From assembly GCF_038002965.1 (NCBI RefSeq), contig NZ_JBBOOE010000001.1:3701001-3765000 (forward strand): a DNA stretch of 64,000 bases, read 5' to 3'. A model generated the notes under the pieces. It had not been told where the DNA came from, ran no database searches, and saw nothing but the letters and a program-made list of their open reading frames with translations. This document shows, piece by piece, positions 39,282-47,958 of this stretch (position 1 is its first letter; the number at the start of each line of letters is the position of its first letter). Origin of the DNA: Robertmurraya sp. FSL R5-0851. GTDB taxonomy: Bacteria; Bacillota; Bacilli; Bacillales; Cytobacillaceae. A program made the translations under genes and the position numbers.

Positions 39282-39312
39282 AAATACCTTGCGAAATCGC
39301 AAGGTATTCTCC
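39282..39312 (-). terminator. Intrinsic terminator after the guanidine cluster
   Basis: AATACCTTGCG and CGCAAGGTATT pair perfectly around AAAT, downstream of the allophanate hydrolase stop. On the minus strand it is followed by T-rich sequence. Confidence 0.75.
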
Positions 39313-39325
39313 TACCTTTGGGACA

Positions 39326-41068
39326 TCAACGTTGATAGCGCCAGCCGCCCAATTGAGTTATATCATCCCCTTTTAGCATCTCATTTGCCTCACACACAAA
39401 CCCAGGTACTTCCGTTCCGTCTTCAAGTTGAACTTTTCCCATGCCCAGAGGAGCTGGGATGAGTAAGGTAAATTTACCAAATTCTGAAACAGGCATTTCC
39501 CAAAGTTCAAGCTCAATAGAAGCTCCGTCATGATTGGAGCGTATAAGTCCCGGCTTTGCCGGTATGGTATCCAGTTTCACTAGTTTGTAGGTTGGAGCTG
39601 TTTTTGCTTCTTTAACAAACGTAGCCTGATGTTCTACCATTTGCTTCTCAAGAGGAAAGCCTCTCATGTGCAACCCACACACCGCTACTAGCGTTGTCGT
39701 TTTTTGGGGTTCAGTTTGTTTATTATTTAGCATGAGATCGGCTAGCCCAAGGATGAAATGCTCATTTTGATTTGTTGAGAAAAATGTTATCCCAAATGGT
39801 AGGTTCTCTTCAGCATCCAGGGTTGGGATATTAATAGCACTCAGATCTAATAGATTGCAATGATTCGTGTAAAAGCCCATCGCACTGTTAGTCGCAATCG
39901 GGTTGCTTCGTACCTCATCTCTTGTCCATGTGCCCCCAGAGGTAGGCATCACCAACACTCCATCTTTAAACTGCTGGTGAGCCGTTTGCTTGAATGCTTG
40001 TAATTTATGCATTGCTTGAAAAACGGATGCCGCATCATATTCTGGCTTTGCCCCTGAACGCAAAACGGCCTCAGTTACAGGAAATGCAACACCTTTATTC
40101 TCCGAAATGAATGCACCTAAGTCGGACCATCGTTCTGCCACCCATGGACCATCGTATAAAACACTAGCTGCCTCTGATAAGTAGCCTCCATCAATGTACT
40201 CAATAGGAATATTTAGTTTTTCTAATCCTACAATAGCCGCTTTCCAAGCATTTTCATACTTTTCTGCGAACGGTCCAAAAAAGATTGGTGGCTCCTTCAT
40301 TAAATAGATTTTTTCAGGTAACACATTTGCCTGGCGGTTGATATTTTTTGACCATGGATCACACTTATCTAACCCTCTTACCACTTGGTCAACCATCTCT
40401 ACATCGGACAAGTCGTTTGCAAACACCGTAACACAATCCAAACTCGCACAAGCGGGAACTACCCCTTTCGTTGGCCATGCACCGAGACTTGGCTTAAATC
40501 CTATCAATCGATTAAGCGCAGCTGGTACACGACCGGATCCTGCTGTATCCGTGCCAAGAGCAAAAGCTACTTGACCTCTGGCAACTGAAACGGCAGAACC
40601 TGAACTAGACCCTCCACTAATTAATTCTGGATTCAGAGCGTTCTTTGTTTCGCCATATGGACTTCTAGTTCCGACAAGTCCGGTAGCGAATTGATCGAGA
40701 TTTGCTTTTCCAACCGGGATGGCCCCAGCGTCGATCAGTCGTCTTACTACTGTCGCATGTTCTACAGGAGTATAAGCAAACTCCGCACAACCCGCTGTTG
40801 TTGGTACACCCGCTAGGTCGATATTATCTTTAATCGCAAAGGGGATTCCCCAGAGAGGAGCTTTCTCTGGGGCCATTTTTTTCAAGTTATCTAAGTAAGG
40901 CTGGATCCATTCCATTGATGGTGGTGTGATCCAAATATTCATCTCTTTGTCAGCTTCACTTCGTCGGATAATCTCTTGAATCAGCTTTTCTGGTGTTAAT
41001 TCGTTAGACTTATATTTTTCTCTTAGATTATGAATGGATAGTTGCTTTGGCGTGTTCATCGTTTTCAT
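39326..41068 (-). CDS. atzF: Allophanate hydrolase
   Basis: This is the last step of the guanidine pathway: allophanate is hydrolysed to two ammonia and two CO2. The 580-residue protein has an amidase-signature domain (about 20-430) with the Ser-cisSer-Lys triad in ISGGSSSGSAVSVARGQV and Lys in PFAIKDNIDLAG. A C-terminal domain of about 140 residues (VCGLHMRGFPLEKQM) is typical of AtzF-type allophanate hydrolases. It overlaps the carboxylase by 41 bases. An intrinsic terminator closes the cluster. Length is close to that of AtzF. Confidence 0.93.
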   Translation of the reverse strand: MKTMNTPKQLSIHNLREKYKSNELTPEKLIQEIIRRSEADKEMNIWITPPSMEWIQPYLDNLKKMAPEKAPLWGIPFAIKDNIDLAGVPTTAGCAEFAYTPVEHATVVRRLIDAGAIPVGKANLDQFATGLVGTRSPYGETKNALNPELISGGSSSGSAVSVARGQVAFALGTDTAGSGRVPAALNRLIGFKPSLGAWPTKGVVPACASLDCVTVFANDLSDVEMVDQVVRGLDKCDPWSKNINRQANVLPEKIYLMKEPPIFFGPFAEKYENAWKAAIVGLEKLNIPIEYIDGGYLSEAASVLYDGPWVAERWSDLGAFISENKGVAFPVTEAVLRSGAKPEYDAASVFQAMHKLQAFKQTAHQQFKDGVLVMPTSGGTWTRDEVRSNPIATNSAMGFYTNHCNLLDLSAINIPTLDAEENLPFGITFFSTNQNEHFILGLADLMLNNKQTEPQKTTTLVAVCGLHMRGFPLEKQMVEHQATFVKEAKTAPTYKLVKLDTIPAKPGLIRSNHDGASIELELWEMPVSEFGKFTLLIPAPLGMGKVQLEDGTEVPGFVCEANEMLKGDDITQLGGWRYQR

Positions 41069-44000
41069 TGGCTATCCCCCGCTTTTCTTTTGTAATGGAG
41101 ACAAACAGTTGTCCCGCATGAACTTCATCACCTGGCGACACGTGGACCGATTGAACACGTCCATCAAACGGAGCATGTTGAGGAAATTCCATCTTCATAC
41201 TTTCCTCAATCATTAATACGTCGCCTTCCTTTACCACATCACCAGGAGAAACCAGCACTTTCCAGACGCTGCCTGGCATCGTACAACGAACCGCTTCTAC
41301 TCCTTTTGGCAATTCTTCTTCAACCGTTTCAGACACGGATTGTTCCGAAATATACTCAGCAAGACCTAGCTCTTTCCAGCTCTCACGCTCCGCCTTAAAG
41401 GCTGCTTCCTGCGTTTGGCGGAACTCTTCCGCACTCTCTTTAATCGAATCTAAAAACGCTAAGTACTCTCCAAGGTTAAAGGTTGTGTTGGTAATATCTA
41501 CTTCAAAACGACCTCTTAGGAAATCTTCTCTCATCACTGTAAGCTCTTCTGTACTGACAGGATAAAATTGAATTTGGTCAAAGAAACGTAGTAACCATGG
41601 CTTTTGCTCTGTAAAACTTTTCGTTTCCCTAACTCGATTCCAAACTTGAACCGTCCGTCCAACAAACTGGTAGCCACCAGGTCCCTCCATTCCATAGATA
41701 CACATATAGGCGCCACCAATTCCAACGGCATTTTCCGGTGTCCATGTTCGAGCGGGATTATATTTTGTTGTTACCAATCGATGTCTTGGATCGATGGGAG
41801 TTGCTACAGGTGCACCCAAGTATACATCGCCAAGACCAAGAACCAAATAGCTCGCATCAAAGACGGTTTTCTTCACATCCTCTATCTGCTCTAAACCATT
41901 CACTCTTCTGATAAATTCCAAGTTACTTGGACACCAAGGCGCATCAGGTCGGACATTTTTTTGATAACGATCGATGGCAAGCTGAGTGGCTGGATCATCC
42001 CATGAAAGAGGAAGTCGAACCACACGGGACGGTACTTCAATCTCCTCTAACGGTGGTAACTCTCGGTTAATTCCTTCCATTAATGCACAAATAGCTAAAG
42101 TTGATATTTGGCCTGCATCAAAATGGACTTGTAGAGAACGAATCCCTGGCGTTAAATCTAAAACCGGAATATCTTCACGAGCTTGAATCGCATCCATCAA
42201 TGCATGAATTTGAAAACGGAGCAAGAGATCTAACTCCATATCTCCATACTCAATGAGAATATGTTCATCTCCCGCTGCACGAATCGTCATTGGAAAATGA
42301 CTTTCATTATTTTGAACAAGTATCGGATAACTTGGTGATAACAGCTTCATTTCTCCTGGCAATGTAGGAACTGGATAATCTCCTATATTTTCTAAAAACA
42401 ATTCTTGTGACTTTCTTAGTTGCTCTGCCTCTTCTAAAGTTAAAAGCTGAAAGCGAACCTTGTCACCAGCATGAAGCTGGCCTAACTTCCAAAACTCGGC
42501 TGATGCGGTTGTCACTGGACAAACAAATCCCCCAAGACTCGGACCATCAGGGCCCAGTAAGATCGGCATATCTCCAGTTAAATCTAATGTCCCTATCGCA
42601 TACGCGTTGTCGTGAATATTAGAAGGATGTAAGCCCGCTTCTCCTCCGTCTTCTCTAGCCCAAAGTGGAGCCGGCCCAATTAAACGTACACCTGTACGAG
42701 AGCTATTAAAATGAACTTCCCAGCTTGTTTCTGTCAACTGCGTCAAATACTCTGGCAATAAAAACTCTTCTGTACAATGTGGACCGGGAATAACACCTAT
42801 TGTCCATTCTTTTGTTAATACAGGCTGTTGTGTAATGACAAGCTCTTTATCAGGAGGTGTTGCACAAGGATGAACACGCAACACATCTCCTGTACGAAGT
42901 GCGCGCCCACCGTGTCCACCAAACCCTCCAAGTGTAAAGGTTGAAGCACTCCCTAAATAGAGGGGCATATCGAACCCACCCGCCACTAGTAAATAAGTGC
43001 GCATTCCTTGTGTAGCTTCACCAAATGAAAGAATTTGCCCGCGCTTGGCAGTGACCACCTGGTAGGTCGGAACAGGAAGATCATCCAAAGTCGCTTTCAT
43101 ATCTGAGCCGGTTAAGCAAAAAACAATATCTCCACGGAAACGGTAAGAGCCCCCACGTAACGTTAGCTCTAGTCCAGCAGCATGAGAGTCATTCCCTAGC
43201 AACTGATTTCCGATTCGGAAAGAGAATGGATCCATCGGTCCACAAGGAGGGACTCCTACATCCCAGTGCCCCACCCGTCCTGGCCAATCTTGCACCGTCG
43301 TTTGGATCCCACCATCGAGTACTTCAATGGCACATTCCGCTGGCGAAAATTCCTTTAACATTTGAGTATGCACATGTCCAGAGCGGCATTCTTCTTCCTC
43401 TAATAGGGACTGTATATACTGTAAGTTGGTGGTCACACCATAGAGCCTAGTATCCTGTAGCGCTTGACTTAGCTGATTGATGGCTTCTTCACGAGTGTTT
43501 GCATGAACAATTATTTTGGCAAGCATGGGGTCATACAAAGAGGTAACGCTCAAACCATCTCTAACCCACGTTTCAATCCGAGCATCCTCTGAAAAGCGAA
43601 CTTGATCCAACTGACCACCGCTCGGACGAAAATCATTCAGACAGTCTTCTGCATAAATTCGAGCTTGAATACTATGCCCTTTCGGAGCGCCGTACAAAGT
43701 ATTTAGATCACGAAGCTCACCAGCCGCTTCACGAACCATCCACTCGACTAAATCAAGACCTAACACTTCTTCGGTCACACCGTGTTCTACCTGAAGCCTG
43801 GTATTCACTTCAAGAAAGTAAAACTTTTCCGCTTCCGGGTCATACAAATATTCGACCGTTCCTGCACTTCTGTATCCCACTTCCTCAGCCAATCGTTTTG
43901 AAGCAGCTAGCATTTCCTCACGAACTGCTGAAGATAAACATGGAGCTGGACTTTCTTCTACCACCTTTTGATTACGGCGCTGAATGGAGCAATCACGTTC

Positions 44001-44672
44001 TCCTAATGCAACCACTTCACCGTACTCATTGCCAAAGATTTGAACCTCTACGTGGCGTGCTTTTTGAATATATTTTTCTAAAAAGACTCCTCCGTTGTTA
44101 AAATTCGTTTCTGCTAGGCGACAGACTGAATCGAAGGCATCCTTTAGCGCAGACTCATCTGCACAAACACGCATTCCAATTCCTCCACCTCCTGCTGTAC
44201 TTTTAAGCATAACAGGATAACCAATTCGTTCGGCTTCCGCAACGGCGGTTTCTACTTTCGTTATTAAGGTGGTACCTGGTAAAAGAGGAACTCCTGCTTT
44301 CACCGCAATTTCACGTGCTGAATGCTTTAATCCAAACAGCTCCATTTGCTCAGGAGTAGGACCAATAAAAGTGATTCCATGTTTCTGACAAGCACGCGCG
44401 AAATCAGCATTTTCACTAAGGAACCCATAGCCTGGATGAATGGCTTCCGCTCCTGTTTCAAGTGCCGTTTTTAAAATGAGTTCGGCATTGAGATAGCTAT
44501 CTTTTGCCACACCTTCACCAATTAATACGGCTTCATCCGCTTGATCAACATGAAGGCTATCTTGGTCTGCTTTTGTATACACCGCAACCGATGAAATGTT
44601 TAGTTTTTTTAGCGTTCTTTCAATTCGAACCGCAATTGCTCCACGGTTTGCAATAAGGACTTTATTGAACAT
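41028..44672 (-). CDS. Guanidine/urea carboxylase, biotin-dependent
   Basis: The 1214-residue enzyme joins biotin carboxylase (about 1-445, with ATP-grasp GGGGIGMRVC and EVNTRLQVEHGVTEE), a carboxyltransferase made of KipA-like and KipI-like halves (about 455-1010, with GPDGPSLGGFVCP), and a C-terminal biotin carrier with biotinyl Lys1160 in EESMKMEF. The family is annotated as urea carboxylase. Where it is linked to guanidine-I riboswitches and the CgdAB proteins it has been shown to carboxylate guanidine, and the two riboswitches here favour that. It uses ATP and bicarbonate and gives carboxyguanidine. It lies 20 bases after the deiminase subunit gene. Confidence 0.92.
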   Translation of the reverse strand: MFNKVLIANRGAIAVRIERTLKKLNISSVAVYTKADQDSLHVDQADEAVLIGEGVAKDSYLNAELILKTALETGAEAIHPGYGFLSENADFARACQKHGITFIGPTPEQMELFGLKHSAREIAVKAGVPLLPGTTLITKVETAVAEAERIGYPVMLKSTAGGGGIGMRVCADESALKDAFDSVCRLAETNFNNGGVFLEKYIQKARHVEVQIFGNEYGEVVALGERDCSIQRRNQKVVEESPAPCLSSAVREEMLAASKRLAEEVGYRSAGTVEYLYDPEAEKFYFLEVNTRLQVEHGVTEEVLGLDLVEWMVREAAGELRDLNTLYGAPKGHSIQARIYAEDCLNDFRPSGGQLDQVRFSEDARIETWVRDGLSVTSLYDPMLAKIIVHANTREEAINQLSQALQDTRLYGVTTNLQYIQSLLEEEECRSGHVHTQMLKEFSPAECAIEVLDGGIQTTVQDWPGRVGHWDVGVPPCGPMDPFSFRIGNQLLGNDSHAAGLELTLRGGSYRFRGDIVFCLTGSDMKATLDDLPVPTYQVVTAKRGQILSFGEATQGMRTYLLVAGGFDMPLYLGSASTFTLGGFGGHGGRALRTGDVLRVHPCATPPDKELVITQQPVLTKEWTIGVIPGPHCTEEFLLPEYLTQLTETSWEVHFNSSRTGVRLIGPAPLWAREDGGEAGLHPSNIHDNAYAIGTLDLTGDMPILLGPDGPSLGGFVCPVTTASAEFWKLGQLHAGDKVRFQLLTLEEAEQLRKSQELFLENIGDYPVPTLPGEMKLLSPSYPILVQNNESHFPMTIRAAGDEHILIEYGDMELDLLLRFQIHALMDAIQAREDIPVLDLTPGIRSLQVHFDAGQISTLAICALMEGINRELPPLEEIEVPSRVVRLPLSWDDPATQLAIDRYQKNVRPDAPWCPSNLEFIRRVNGLEQIEDVKKTVFDASYLVLGLGDVYLGAPVATPIDPRHRLVTTKYNPARTWTPENAVGIGGAYMCIYGMEGPGGYQFVGRTVQVWNRVRETKSFTEQKPWLLRFFDQIQFYPVSTEELTVMREDFLRGRFEVDITNTTFNLGEYLAFLDSIKESAEEFRQTQEAAFKAERESWKELGLAEYISEQSVSETVEEELPKGVEAVRCTMPGSVWKVLVSPGDVVKEGDVLMIEESMKMEFPQHAPFDGRVQSVHVSPGDEVHAGQLFVSITKEKRGIANENDEHAKATIHS

Positions 44673-44692: not shown

Positions 44693-45343
44693 TTATTTAT
44701 CCCAGATTAGTAGTTGAATAGGTGTTGGATTATAAGCGTTACAAGGATTATTTAATTGTGGACAGTTGCTAATAAGGACAAGCGTTCGACTGACTGCTTT
44801 CATTTCTACATAATATCCTGGAGCGGATACACCATCTTCAAAGGTTAATCCACCTTCTGGAGTCACAGGAACATTCATAAAGAAGTTCACGTTTGGTGCT
44901 AAATCTCGTTTGTTAAATTGGCTTCCATACTTTGATAGTTGAAGCATAAACGTATCTCGACAGTTATGCATCGGAAGCGTGTCATGAGCATAACGAACGG
45001 TGTTACTTTGTGCGGAACAAGCACCACCAAGCGTATCGTGGCGTCCACATGTATCGGCAACAATCTCAACTAGTTCTTTTCCTGACTCGGATACTAGAAC
45101 GGAACCCGTCGTTAAATACACATTGCCTTGGCGTTGGATTGTATTGATCGCACTATAATGGTCCATTGGATGATCCGCATCGTAAAATAGGGTGTCTGCC
45201 GCCTGGTTTCCCTCTAGATCCACTATTCTTAACACCTGTCCTGGTTCAAGAATTTTGGTCCACCCTTCTCCAGCAGGAACGATATAGTTATCAATTGCTT
45301 CATCTACCTGTCTTTCACTAACTTTATATTGTAAAGTGGCCAT
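44693..45343 (-). CDS. cgdB: Carboxyguanidine deiminase subunit (urea amidolyase-associated protein UAAP2)
   Basis: This 216-residue protein of the DUF1989 family (TIGR03424 type) contains [35 protein letters not shown] and [12 protein letters not shown], with Cys and His that could bind a metal. CgdA and CgdB together convert carboxyguanidine to allophanate. The ATG at 45343 after AAAGGAGGAACAAACTA is preferred to an upstream frame start. It overlaps the stop of the partner by one base (TAATG), so the two are translated together. Which of the two proteins is A or B follows the published naming only by analogy. Confidence 0.86.
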
Positions 45344-46071
45344 TAGTTTGTTCCTCCTTTTGTTAGTAAACAATAGTCCCATGTGTTCTCAAATGCACGA
45401 CGATTTTCCGGACGATGGTTCACACAAACATCGTTCTCTTCTACAGGAGCTGCATCAGTGATCGTGATCTCGACAGGAACAGAGGGATAATTGGAACTAG
45501 CGTCCAGCGGATTTGGCGTGTTTGATACGATCATCAGAACGTCCATCTCTGTTCTCAGTGTAATGGTGTCCCCTTTTTTGGAATGACCTGGCTTGAAATG
45601 AAGTGAACCATCTTCCTTGCAAAATACTTTCGAAAATAAATTAACAACGGGGATTAGATCTCTGTTTGTTAATCCATTTCGGAACAATTCAACCGCAAAG
45701 TTTTCTTCCCCACTTCGATACCAATCATTTCTTTGTTCTTGATAGGTGGTCTTCCCATATCGTTCGTCGATCATTAGGCGTGTGGCATAACCTGATATCG
45801 TGTCATGCCAGCCTAGAGAATCATCAATCATACTAGCTAATACTCTTCCATTGTCACTCATCAAGACATTTCCAGTCGTTAAGTGAGCGGTATGCTGAGC
45901 CTTTAATGTATCCGGCATATTGTAGCGTTCGGATGTGTCATCTGCGTTATATAAAAGGAGAGAAAGATTGGCTCCATCACCGAGAGTCGTAAAGGTTAGT
46001 TGTTTTCCACTTTTTATTTTTGTTGACCATTTTCCACCAGCAGGAATTAATTTCGTTAGTATCTTACTCAT
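45343..46071 (-). CDS. cgdA: Carboxyguanidine deiminase subunit (urea amidolyase-associated protein UAAP1)
   Basis: This 242-residue DUF1989-family protein (TIGR03425 type) pairs with the next gene. It contains [31 protein letters not shown] and [14 protein letters not shown], with the conserved motifs of the deiminase fold. AAAGGAGG precedes two adjacent ATG codons; the second gives better spacing. It follows riboswitch 1 and its own inferred TnrA-controlled promoter, so it heads the second transcript of the cluster. Confidence 0.86.
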
Positions 46072-46093
46072 CATTTAGCCTCCTTTAAAATAA

Positions 46094-46245
46094 AAACGGA
46101 TAAAAGCCTAGGAGATCATTCATCTCCCAGGCTTTTATCCTTCCGTGTATACAGCAGATGCTGTACGCTCTCTCTCGGACCTGACGTTATTAACCGGAAC
46201 CCTAGAAAGCTTTTTCGTTTCCAACAGAATGTGGAAACCTGTATG
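46094..46245 (-). ncRNA. Guanidine-I (ykkC) riboswitch with terminator, upstream of cgdA
   Basis: On the minus strand the aptamer shows the conserved blocks CTAGGGTTCCGG, TCCGAGAGAGAGC and ACACGGAAGGATAAAAGCC, which define the ykkC/guanidine-I class. The downstream hairpin GATAAAAGCCTGGGAGAT pairs with ATCTCCTAGGCTTTTATC and is followed by a T-tract, so it acts as a terminator in the unbound state. Guanidine binding should permit read-through into cgdA. Confidence 0.95.
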
Positions 46246-46256
46246 TTGTTGTACTT

Positions 46257-46309
46257 AGTATAACTATCAGAAAAGATAGATAACAATGAATGTGTCAGAC
46301 TATCTAACA
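46257..46309 (-). promoter_or_regulatory. Inferred TnrA-dependent promoter of riboswitch 1 transcript
   Basis: The 17-bp box at 46293-46309 (TGTCAGACTATCTAACA) matches the TnrA consensus TGTNANAWWWTMTNACA with one mismatch. On the minus strand, TATACT at 46257-46262 is a good -10. The box centre lies about 50 bp upstream of the inferred start, the usual distance for TnrA activation. The box overlaps the end of the permease gene. Confidence 0.6.
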
Positions 46310-47667
46310 ATGTTTTTCTTAATTGCTGTTTGTTGAAAAGACAAAGCCATTTTACGTTCCTTAGCTTTTGTCCATTCCGTCTTCAAGAAGAGATAAGTAA
46401 ATCCGACAGCAACCCAGATGACTCCCGCTGTTAACGTATGTTTATCAAGCAAGGTTAACAGCCAGCCTATAAAACTTGCCCCGACAAGTGGGAAAATTAG
46501 ATAAATACAAGTGTCTTTTAGGGAGCGTTTTTTCATTTTCACATAGTAATGTGCAATCACTGATAGATTCACAAATATAAATGCGGTTAAGGCACCGAAG
46601 CTTACAAACATGACAGCCGTATCTAGACTAATAAACACCGCAGACAATGAAATAAACGCAATCAAAATGATATTAGCAAAAGGTGTTTTGTATTTAGGAT
46701 GTATGCTTGTAAATATTTTTCCAGGAAGAATGGATTCCTTACCAAGTGCATATAAAAATCGGCTCACACTTGTTACAGAGGAAACACCCTGTGTAAAGGT
46801 TGCAATCATAAGAACCATAATAAATAGAGAACTCAATAAATTGCTACCAACTAATTGAACGAGATTATAGGCTGCATTATCAGGATTGGTAAAAGTAAAA
46901 TCCGGATAGGCAAGTTGAGTCAAATATGAAATTGCCGTGTACATCGTTACCGCTATGATCACAATAAGAAAGATTGCTTTTGGTATCGTCTTTTTTGCAT
47001 CGATCGTTTCTTCTGCCATCGTTGTCACTGCGTCAAAACCGAGGAAGCAAAAACAGATGAGTGCTGCGCCGGAAAAAACAGCACTTAAAGCAATATGTTC
47101 GCCGAAGAAAGGTGTTAAAGAGAAGAGTGAACCAGTACCTGTTCCACCTGCTAAAAGATCCTTTGCGACGAGAATACAAAAGATAACAATAAACCCGATT
47201 TGAACAAGTACCGACAACCCACTCACACGAGCAGCAGATTTTATACCAACGATATTAACGATGGCCAAGATGATATTCATGAAGATAATCCAAACAAAAA
47301 CAGGTATAGAAGGAAATTCTGTATGCATGAAGATACCAAATGTAAGAATTGCAATGATAGGAGAGAAAAGATAATCCAAAAGAAGAGCCCAACCAACAAG
47401 AAAGCCTGCCATGGGATGAACTGCCCTCTTCGTATACGTATAGGCAGAACCTGAGACCGGGTAAGCCTTAACCATTAAACTGTAGCTATAAGCTGTGAAA
47501 AAGATCGCAATAAATGCCGTTACATAGGCAGCCGCCATCATTCCACTTGATGCCTCATAAGCAACTCCGTATACGGTAAAGAAAATCATCGGTGTCATCC
47601 AAGCAAGTCCCATAAATACAACTTGATGCAACTTTAGTGATTTTACTAATCCTGTTCCTTTGTTCAT
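46300..47667 (-). CDS. APC-family permease of the guanidine cluster
   Basis: This 455-residue amino acid-polyamine-organocation transporter has about 12 transmembrane segments. It begins MNKGTGLVKSLKLHQVVFMG and contains the family segment SGSAYTYTKRAVHPMAGFLVG. Permeases of this group are found with urea carboxylase clusters downstream of guanidine-I riboswitches, so guanidine or a related cation is the likely substrate; the sequence alone does not prove it. It is the first gene after riboswitch 2, and its 3' end contains the TnrA-like box of the next promoter. Confidence 0.88.
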   Translation of the reverse strand: MNKGTGLVKSLKLHQVVFMGLAWMTPMIFFTVYGVAYEASSGMMAAAYVTAFIAIFFTAYSYSLMVKAYPVSGSAYTYTKRAVHPMAGFLVGWALLLDYLFSPIIAILTFGIFMHTEFPSIPVFVWIIFMNIILAIVNIVGIKSAARVSGLSVLVQIGFIVIFCILVAKDLLAGGTGTGSLFSLTPFFGEHIALSAVFSGAALICFCFLGFDAVTTMAEETIDAKKTIPKAIFLIVIIAVTMYTAISYLTQLAYPDFTFTNPDNAAYNLVQLVGSNLLSSLFIMVLMIATFTQGVSSVTSVSRFLYALGKESILPGKIFTSIHPKYKTPFANIILIAFISLSAVFISLDTAVMFVSFGALTAFIFVNLSVIAHYYVKMKKRSLKDTCIYLIFPLVGASFIGWLLTLLDKHTLTAGVIWVAVGFTYLFLKTEWTKAKERKMALSFQQTAIKKNIVR

Positions 47668-47702
47668 TCTCTAACACCTTCTTTTTTGGATTTCGTGTTA
47701 TA

Positions 47703-47860
47703 AAAAAACAAAAGCCCAGGAGAATTTTACAGAAAAATTCTCCCGGGCTTTTGTCCCTCCGTGTCTACAGTTATACTGTACGCTCTCTCTCGGACCAGAC
47801 ATTTTCCAACCGGAACCCTAGAGAGCCATTTTTGTCCCCACTAACGAGAACCTGTATGCT
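47703..47860 (-). ncRNA. Guanidine-I (ykkC) riboswitch with terminator, upstream of the permease
   Basis: The minus strand reads CTAGGGTTCCGGTTGG, then TGGTCCGAGAGAGAGCG and ACACGGAGGGACAAAAGCC, the conserved blocks of the guanidine-I class. AAAAGCCCGGGAGAATTTT pairs with AAAATTCTCCTGGGCTTTT and precedes seven T, a clear terminator. The aptamer is a diverged copy of the one at 46094-46245. Confidence 0.95.
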
Positions 47861-47871
47861 TTTATACTCTG

Positions 47872-47924
47872 AAGTATAGACGTGTAAAAGCAGGGGTTCA
47901 AGGAACATGTCAGATTATATGACA
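47872..47924 (-). promoter_or_regulatory. Inferred TnrA-dependent promoter of the permease transcript
   Basis: The box at 47908-47924 reads TGTCAGATTATATGACA (minus strand TGTCATATAATCTGACA) and matches TGTNANAWWWTMTNACA at every position. TATACT at about 47873-47878 (minus strand) provides a -10, and the distance from box centre to inferred start is about 50 bp. Nitrogen-limitation activation by TnrA, or repression by GlnR, is expected. Confidence 0.7.
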
Positions 47925-47928
47925 TAGA

Positions 47929-47958
47929 AAAAAGCTACCCAAAATACGGTAGCTTTCA
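47929..47958 (-). terminator. Intrinsic terminator after the DoxX-like gene
   Basis: AAAGCTACC and GGTAGCTTT form a stem around CAAAATAC, between the gene stop at 47974 and the riboswitch promoter. Confidence 0.7.

Follow-up and report, generated by a model that had tools for sequence, protein, structure and literature searches.

Guanidine-I riboswitches of uptake and breakdown genes are paired with TnrA/GlnR-type promoters in Robertmurraya sp. FSL R5-0851 and its family

The guanidine cluster of Robertmurraya sp. FSL R5-0851 contains two units in which a TnrA/GlnR-type box, a promoter and a guanidine-I riboswitch follow one another. We give a probability of roughly 0.7 to the reading that each transcription unit is a serial AND gate, in which activation by TnrA at low nitrogen would have to coincide with guanidine at the riboswitch. 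That guanidine use depends on guanidine and on nitrogen limitation together had been proposed in a preliminary description of this DNA, and it is the best reading that the sequence alone affords, since TnrA and GlnR are both encoded by the host and since, across its family, the box accompanies riboswitches of uptake and catabolic genes and not those of efflux genes. The same description had this control occurring twice in one cluster: both units were confirmed, and the genome adds a third one outside the window (i.e.: the whole stretch of 64,000 nucleotides that we analysed).

All elements of the cluster, i.e.: boxes, promoters, hairpins, aptamers, terminators and genes, lie on the minus strand. 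Only two Rfam matches reached the gathering score in the 64-kb window, and both are guanidine-I riboswitches (RF00442, gathering score 63), located as first described: aptamer 1 (47738..47832, 84.6 bits) precedes a permease and aptamer 2 (46122..46216, 88.1 bits) precedes cgdA. The former is an APC-superfamily permease (open reading frame 46300..47667, PF00324/PF13520) that presumably imports guanidine. Aptamer 2 is followed by open reading frames for cgdA (UAAP1, DUF1989; 45343..46074, TIGR03425), cgdB (UAAP2, DUF1989; 44693..45343, TIGR03424, with a frame listed from 45382 and a likely start at 45343), a guanidine/urea carboxylase (41028..44672, TIGR02712) and an allophanate hydrolase (39326..41068, TIGR02713). 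Together, these last four make up the content of a guanidine carboxylase operon, and the riboswitch and cgdAB context suggests that the TIGR02712 enzyme is specific for guanidine over urea. The allophanate hydrolase is present in all 13 of the relatives' stretches examined.

Both riboswitches have an expression platform able to exclude the aptamer, whose 3' part is taken by a terminator: terminator 1 (47708..47754) overlaps the 3' part of aptamer 1 and terminator 2 (46098..46140) that of aptamer 2, according to a terminator scan and to folding. The minimum-energy folds of both leaders are the terminator form (z of -6.84 and -6.57). The terminator scan also reported a terminator-like hairpin after the preceding gene, just 5' of box 1 (47930..47957); another one, with a T run, stands where the cluster ends (39283..39308) and was found by eye, being absent from the scan list. 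The latter separates the cluster from a chemoreceptor (MCP) gene (39194-37506) that we had considered as a further member. This gene occurs in 0 of the 13 relatives' stretches and is probably a mere neighbour.

Box 1 (TGTCATATAATCTGACA, 47908..47924, minus strand) has no mismatch to the consensus TGTNANAWWWTMTNACA, and box 2 (TGTTAGATAGTCTGACA, 46293..46309, minus strand), which lies over the permease stop codon, has one, in agreement with the preliminary description; neither has a mismatch to TGTNAN7TNACA. Promoters P1 (TTGAAC-17-TATACT, 47873..47901) and P2 (TTGTTA-18-TATACT, 46257..46286) follow on the same strand, and the -10 hexamer, TATACT in both as had been noted, begins at nearly equal spacing, 29 nt past box 1 and 30 nt past box 2. 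Assuming that transcription starts about 7 nt past the -10, i.e.: near 47866 and near 46250, the box centres would fall at approximately -50 and -51, positions that depend on this assumption and that match the 50 bp originally suggested. The activating position of TnrA is around -50. Exact copies of TGTNAN7TNACA occur at three sites in the window (46293, 47908 and 62638), but with up to one mismatch the motif is found at chance level (47 versus 39.9 expected), and the claim hence rests on position and recurrence rather than on the boxes alone. The region holds no excess of promoter-like sites (20 versus 22.8 expected).

Both regulators are encoded in the host genome. The best PDB match of the first (L035, 109 aa) is TnrA, with 101.6 bits versus 61.9 for GlnR, and GlnR is a separate gene (L034); a TnrA orthologue with 61-100% identity was found in all 23 family genomes queried. 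The full consensus fits exactly at 18 places in the host genome and, with up to one mismatch, at 81 and 67 sites on the two strands versus 37 and 33 for a reversed control. Only seven of the 18 exact boxes have a -10-like hexamer (at least 5/6) 27-32 nt downstream. At the tnrA promoter of the host, TATAAT lies 29 nt past the box.

There are four RF00442 matches in the host genome, two of them in the window. In the third unit (C1:938460-938568), an exact box ends 95 nt before the aptamer and TATACT lies 29 nt past the box. Its genes (L321, C1:938348-943499) encode an ABC substrate-binding protein, a permease, an ATPase, a second cgdA and cgdB and a PxpA-like protein, and no carboxylase was found among the same-strand downstream open reading frames of at least 150 aa within a 16-kb stretch. 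The fourth riboswitch, whose 41.9 bits fall short of the gathering score, stands before an SMR efflux pair, and a scan of 450 nt around its start revealed no box within two mismatches.

A search for the TnrA consensus upstream of guanidine-I riboswitches in related genomes had been suggested at the outset, and its outcome was favourable. RF00442 was found in 149 of the 193 genomes of the host's family, and our sample comprises 151 riboswitches: 150 among the matches listed plus the host's fourth match. We named the first downstream gene by tblastn against the proteins of the window and of the host genome, and the remainder by reading. Among the matches listed, the 151 riboswitches fall into SMR (88), cgdA (22), permease (19), a 106-aa membrane protein (11), ABC substrate-binding protein (7) and ureohydrolase (1), with three lacking a named gene. 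The best box was then sought 60-140 nt before the CTAGGGTTCCG core. Among the matches listed, a box with at most two mismatches was present at 47 of 48 uptake/catabolic riboswitches versus 0 of 87 testable SMR riboswitches, the 88th having no upstream sequence and being left out. This association is summarized by a Fisher test with p ~1e-35, a value overstated by the relatedness of the genomes. In shuffled upstream sequence, boxes appeared with at most two mismatches in 3.4% and with at most one in 0.36% of 1920 cases.

The association extends to each uptake/catabolic class among the matches listed: all 19 permease riboswitches have a box with at most two mismatches (10 exact), all 22 cgdA riboswitches one with at most one (11 exact), and so do six of the seven preceding substrate-binding proteins (5 exact). 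L110 (G189:C55), which precedes a substrate-binding protein and a second open reading frame of 185 aa, is the sole boxless riboswitch of the uptake class among the matches listed. In the 106-aa class, two of 11 had a one-mismatch box, but at 131 and 133 nt, and the single ureohydrolase riboswitch had none, again among the matches listed. Of the loci without a named gene, L104, at a contig end, has an exact box, and L100 and L172 have none. Boxed loci span six genera; related genomes are not independent, and L307/L262 and L308/L297 are probably the same records. Within the family, the riboswitch class is thus split by physiology, with uptake and breakdown behind nitrogen-type promoters and SMR efflux not. 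The split supports the view that guanidine is a nitrogen source via one gene set and a poison via another, and the pairing provides a rule predicting which guanidine use a riboswitch serves.

Removal of near copies from the 48 boxed loci (the 47 above plus L104) left 27. In all 27 non-redundant loci the best -10 lies 28-31 nt past the box (29 nt in 15 loci, 30 in eight, 28 in three and 31 in one), and the hexamer is TATACT in 24, GATACT in two and TATAAT in one. The mean -10 match at this spacing is 4.96/6, versus 3.33 (sd 0.17) in shuffled sequence. With the -10 fixed, the mean -35 match is 3.41/6 versus 2.56 (sd 0.18) in a matched spacer shuffle, in which 0 of 2000 trials were as high. A -35 is therefore present in the family, often as just the TTG half, with TTGAAC and TTGTTA in the window; the family mean is poorer than the value for glnRA (6) and above the shuffle. 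When promoters were chosen by the best promoter sum, uptake/catabolic leaders had a mean -35 of 3.78 (shuffled 3.59, sd 0.18). The 62 non-redundant SMR leaders reached 4.10, with 3.58 (sd 0.12) in their shuffles, and the two groups do not differ significantly (p 0.12). TATAAT is the predominant -10 of the SMR promoters (39 of 62). An off-consensus -35 combined with TATACT would favour a need for an activator, as a sign that is not a strong one.

From these elements we infer the following sequence of events. At low nitrogen, TnrA would bind the 17-bp box, whose centre is near -50, and assist RNA polymerase at a promoter that has a good -10, TATACT, and a -35 off consensus. The transcribed leader would fold a hairpin and then the guanidine-I aptamer. 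Guanidine-I riboswitches turn genes on when guanidine binds: in its absence the terminator would take up the aptamer's 3' part, and in its presence the aptamer would hold and transcription would continue. P1 would serve the permease; transcripts from it would extend into cgdAB and the genes for carboxylase and allophanate hydrolase only after clearing riboswitch 2 as well. P2, located where the permease gene ends, would lead to the catabolic genes directly, via riboswitch 2 only. If this is so, half of the control should escape a riboswitch reporter that is driven by a foreign promoter or assayed in rich medium.

The same logic of low nitrogen AND guanidine would arise if GlnR were the main regulator and, at high nitrogen, occupied this box to repress a self-sufficient promoter. 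GlnR is encoded in the host genome, and in its glnRA promoter (the site of GlnR autoregulation) the box stands at offset 28, followed by TTGACA-17-TATAAT. This offset from the -10 is near-identical to that of the guanidine promoters, and box position alone hence cannot separate TnrA activation from GlnR repression. The family -35, being above its matched shuffle, also leans toward GlnR. The promoters themselves differ in sequence: the glnRA promoter of the host is of consensus TTGACA/TATAAT type, and the guanidine promoters of the family have an off-consensus -35 and TATACT.

Sites outside the family bear on this alternative in both directions. We scanned GTDB species genomes for the core with a box at 78-108 nt and obtained at least 120 stretches; since the box was a selection criterion, the counts in them are not rates. 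In the first 80 of these stretches there were 90 sites (cgdA 37, permease 29, substrate-binding protein 11, SMR 1, unnamed 12), 24 of which we set aside as belonging to the host's family; the other 40 gave 47 sites (cgdA 18, permease 14, substrate-binding protein 8, SMR 0, unnamed 7, five of them cut). Of the 12 unnamed sites in the first 80 stretches, six are cut within 300 nt and most others are non-Bacilli, and these non-Bacilli sites look like chance matches. The 20 sites from other Bacilli (at least 20 exist) all resemble those of the family, with a mean -35 of 3.45/6 and TATACT in 17. Among at least 39 Paenibacillus-type sites, a group that includes FJAT-26390, 19 carry, at the expected position, a -10 that scores a match of at least 5, and many of these are glnRA-like, with a mean -35 of 5.37 (TTGACA in 13, TTGACT/TTGACG in four); 20 of 39 among the matches listed lie outside the box/-10 geometry. 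The glnRA-like promoters speak for GlnR, but the off-consensus -35 of the family and of the other Bacilli (means 3.41 and 3.45/6), together with a -10 that is mostly TATACT, fits a promoter requiring help, and we consider GlnR as main regulator possible yet distinctly less probable than activation by TnrA.

A second TnrA-like protein besides GlnR was found in 23 of 31 Paenibacillus-type genomes (46 genomes queried), e.g. G588, G590, G591 and G592, with 54-65% identity over the matched part in open frames of 77-157 aa. We had entertained a rule by which TnrA-less Paenibacillus uses GlnR, and discarded it on account of these 23 genomes and of the 20 of 39 listed sites that are off geometry. A separate observation concerns L217, from an uncultured bacterium, the only SMR-type riboswitch with a box at the expected distance among the matches listed (137 sites): its box has two mismatches and there is no good -10 at the expected place.

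A class-wide search for cgdA gave matches in 14 of 398 genomes, the host included. In the 13 other genomes, a box at the usual distance was present in two (L307 and L308), and L309 has one with two mismatches 190 nt before the core. Eight cgdA-like genes of one genus lacked, within 1.5 kb, both the riboswitch core and a box. L310 and L311, from one genus, have exact boxes around 270 nt before the riboswitch core, versus the usual 90 or so. As judged from these sequences, the pairing of box and riboswitch holds firmly within the family and only loosely beyond it.

A further alternative is that P2 is no working promoter, box 2 either binding a regulator without output or acting on read-through from P1. 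The accessible part of PMC4475385 describes TnrA-bound sites without regulation, some of them inside genes, and P1 does read the gene whose end holds box 2: the box covers the last codons and the stop TAG (46302-46300) of the permease gene, in whose 3' end it had correctly been placed. Yet all 22 cgdA riboswitches among the matches listed have box 2, and the spacing of 28-31 nt to a TATACT-like -10 is kept in the non-redundant set, so that we regard a silent P2 as improbable. In the same 22 of 22 loci among the matches listed, the C-terminus of a permease lies directly upstream and its stop falls at box 2. Across these loci the stop takes seven offsets, from -13 to +20 relative to the box start, and the form of the box is unchanged. 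A coding by-product would not be expected to stay in place while the stop codon moves, and selection on the DNA site appears to explain the persistence of box 2 better than selection on the protein end. For the two boxes together, the notion that they are inert products of chance or coding, with the riboswitches as sole regulators, draws on the chance level of one-mismatch boxes in the window but can be set aside as highly improbable in view of the division by gene class over six genera among the matches listed (47/48 vs 0/87), the fixed spacing to the -10 and the retention of box 2.

The leaders hold one more element. Hairpin 1 (47834..47851, minus strand) lies between P1 and aptamer 1, and hairpin 2 (46217..46238, minus strand) between P2 and aptamer 2, both found by folding and comparison. 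From the -10 to the aptamer, uptake/catabolic leaders have the common form ATAAAGG-stem-loop-stem-AAAAAGC, and the hairpin, with its conserved ATAAAGG 5' edge, is outside the Rfam match. We aligned 27 leaders hand-picked from the 48 boxed loci. In these, changes occur on both sides in six of six pairs, and 91.9% of the hairpin cells can pair, versus 42-60% when slid and 81.6% when shuffled; further pair types were not above the shuffles, 78 of 500 of which reach the observed value. A scripted stem search was unspecific, matching 35 of 88 SMR leaders, and we therefore used a covariance model, whose training set includes both window hairpins. At E up to 1, the model had no match in 99 SMR and 106-aa loci. 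It matched 31 of 58 named loci that we had not assigned to the family, drawn from the at least 120 stretches, and none of the seven non-Bacilli or uncultured loci among the 58; all 34 hairpin matches in these loci, among the matches listed, lie directly before a guanidine-I core. The hairpin of the third host unit (L321:1513-1571), also in the training set, matches the model, and permease leaders fit it most poorly. It is conceivable, if rather doubtful, that the hairpin is a third control element of nitrogen-gated leaders, perhaps read by a protein or acting via polymerase pausing; in that case three decisions stacked on one another would govern guanidine use, i.e.: nitrogen regulator, leader element and riboswitch. 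A passive stabiliser is an equally likely role.

The arrangement resembles the primary TnrA regulon of B. subtilis (nrgAB, nasA, tnrA and puc genes) in that a 17-bp TGTNAN7TNACA box stands shortly 5' of the promoter of genes for uptake and breakdown of nitrogen sources, with TnrA encoded here too, and differs from it in the riboswitch that comes after the promoter. The term guanidine is absent from PMC4475385 and PMC3412718. With known guanidine-I (ykkC) operons the cluster shares the RF00442 aptamer, the terminator platform and the carboxylase, allophanate hydrolase and cgdAB content, but here there are two riboswitches per cluster, each with a nitrogen-type promoter and a leader hairpin. TnrA is bound at B. 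subtilis ykkC as well, as the accessible part of PMC4475385 relates; this too is a gene with a guanidine-I riboswitch, but one for efflux, the box is visible by the newer consensus only, and deletion of tnrA had no effect under the conditions used. Within the literature searched, this is the nearest case. In the tandem T-box/guanidine riboswitches before ilv-leu with CodY and TnrA, as set out in the accessible part of PMC12452182, a riboswitch is likewise layered on nitrogen-linked factors, but in amino-acid biosynthesis and with two RNA switches in one leader. No description of nitrogen control of a guanidine catabolic cluster was found in the literature searched, part of which was accessible in excerpt, and an earlier mention is possible. 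We read our results as adding to the TnrA/GlnR regulon a well-conserved combination with one riboswitch class, for which we met no precedent in the literature searched. That a nitrogen source should be under nitrogen control is unsurprising in itself; less expected may be how cleanly this class divides within the family and, above all, the leader hairpin.

Finally, a membrane protein of approximately 106 aa follows the riboswitch at L057, L072, L074, L079, L101, L109, L119, L123, L135, L143 and L146, and by eye L100 is a twelfth locus of this class. The copy at L057 had no Pfam or NCBIfam match, and the protein is perhaps an unnamed guanidine transporter.
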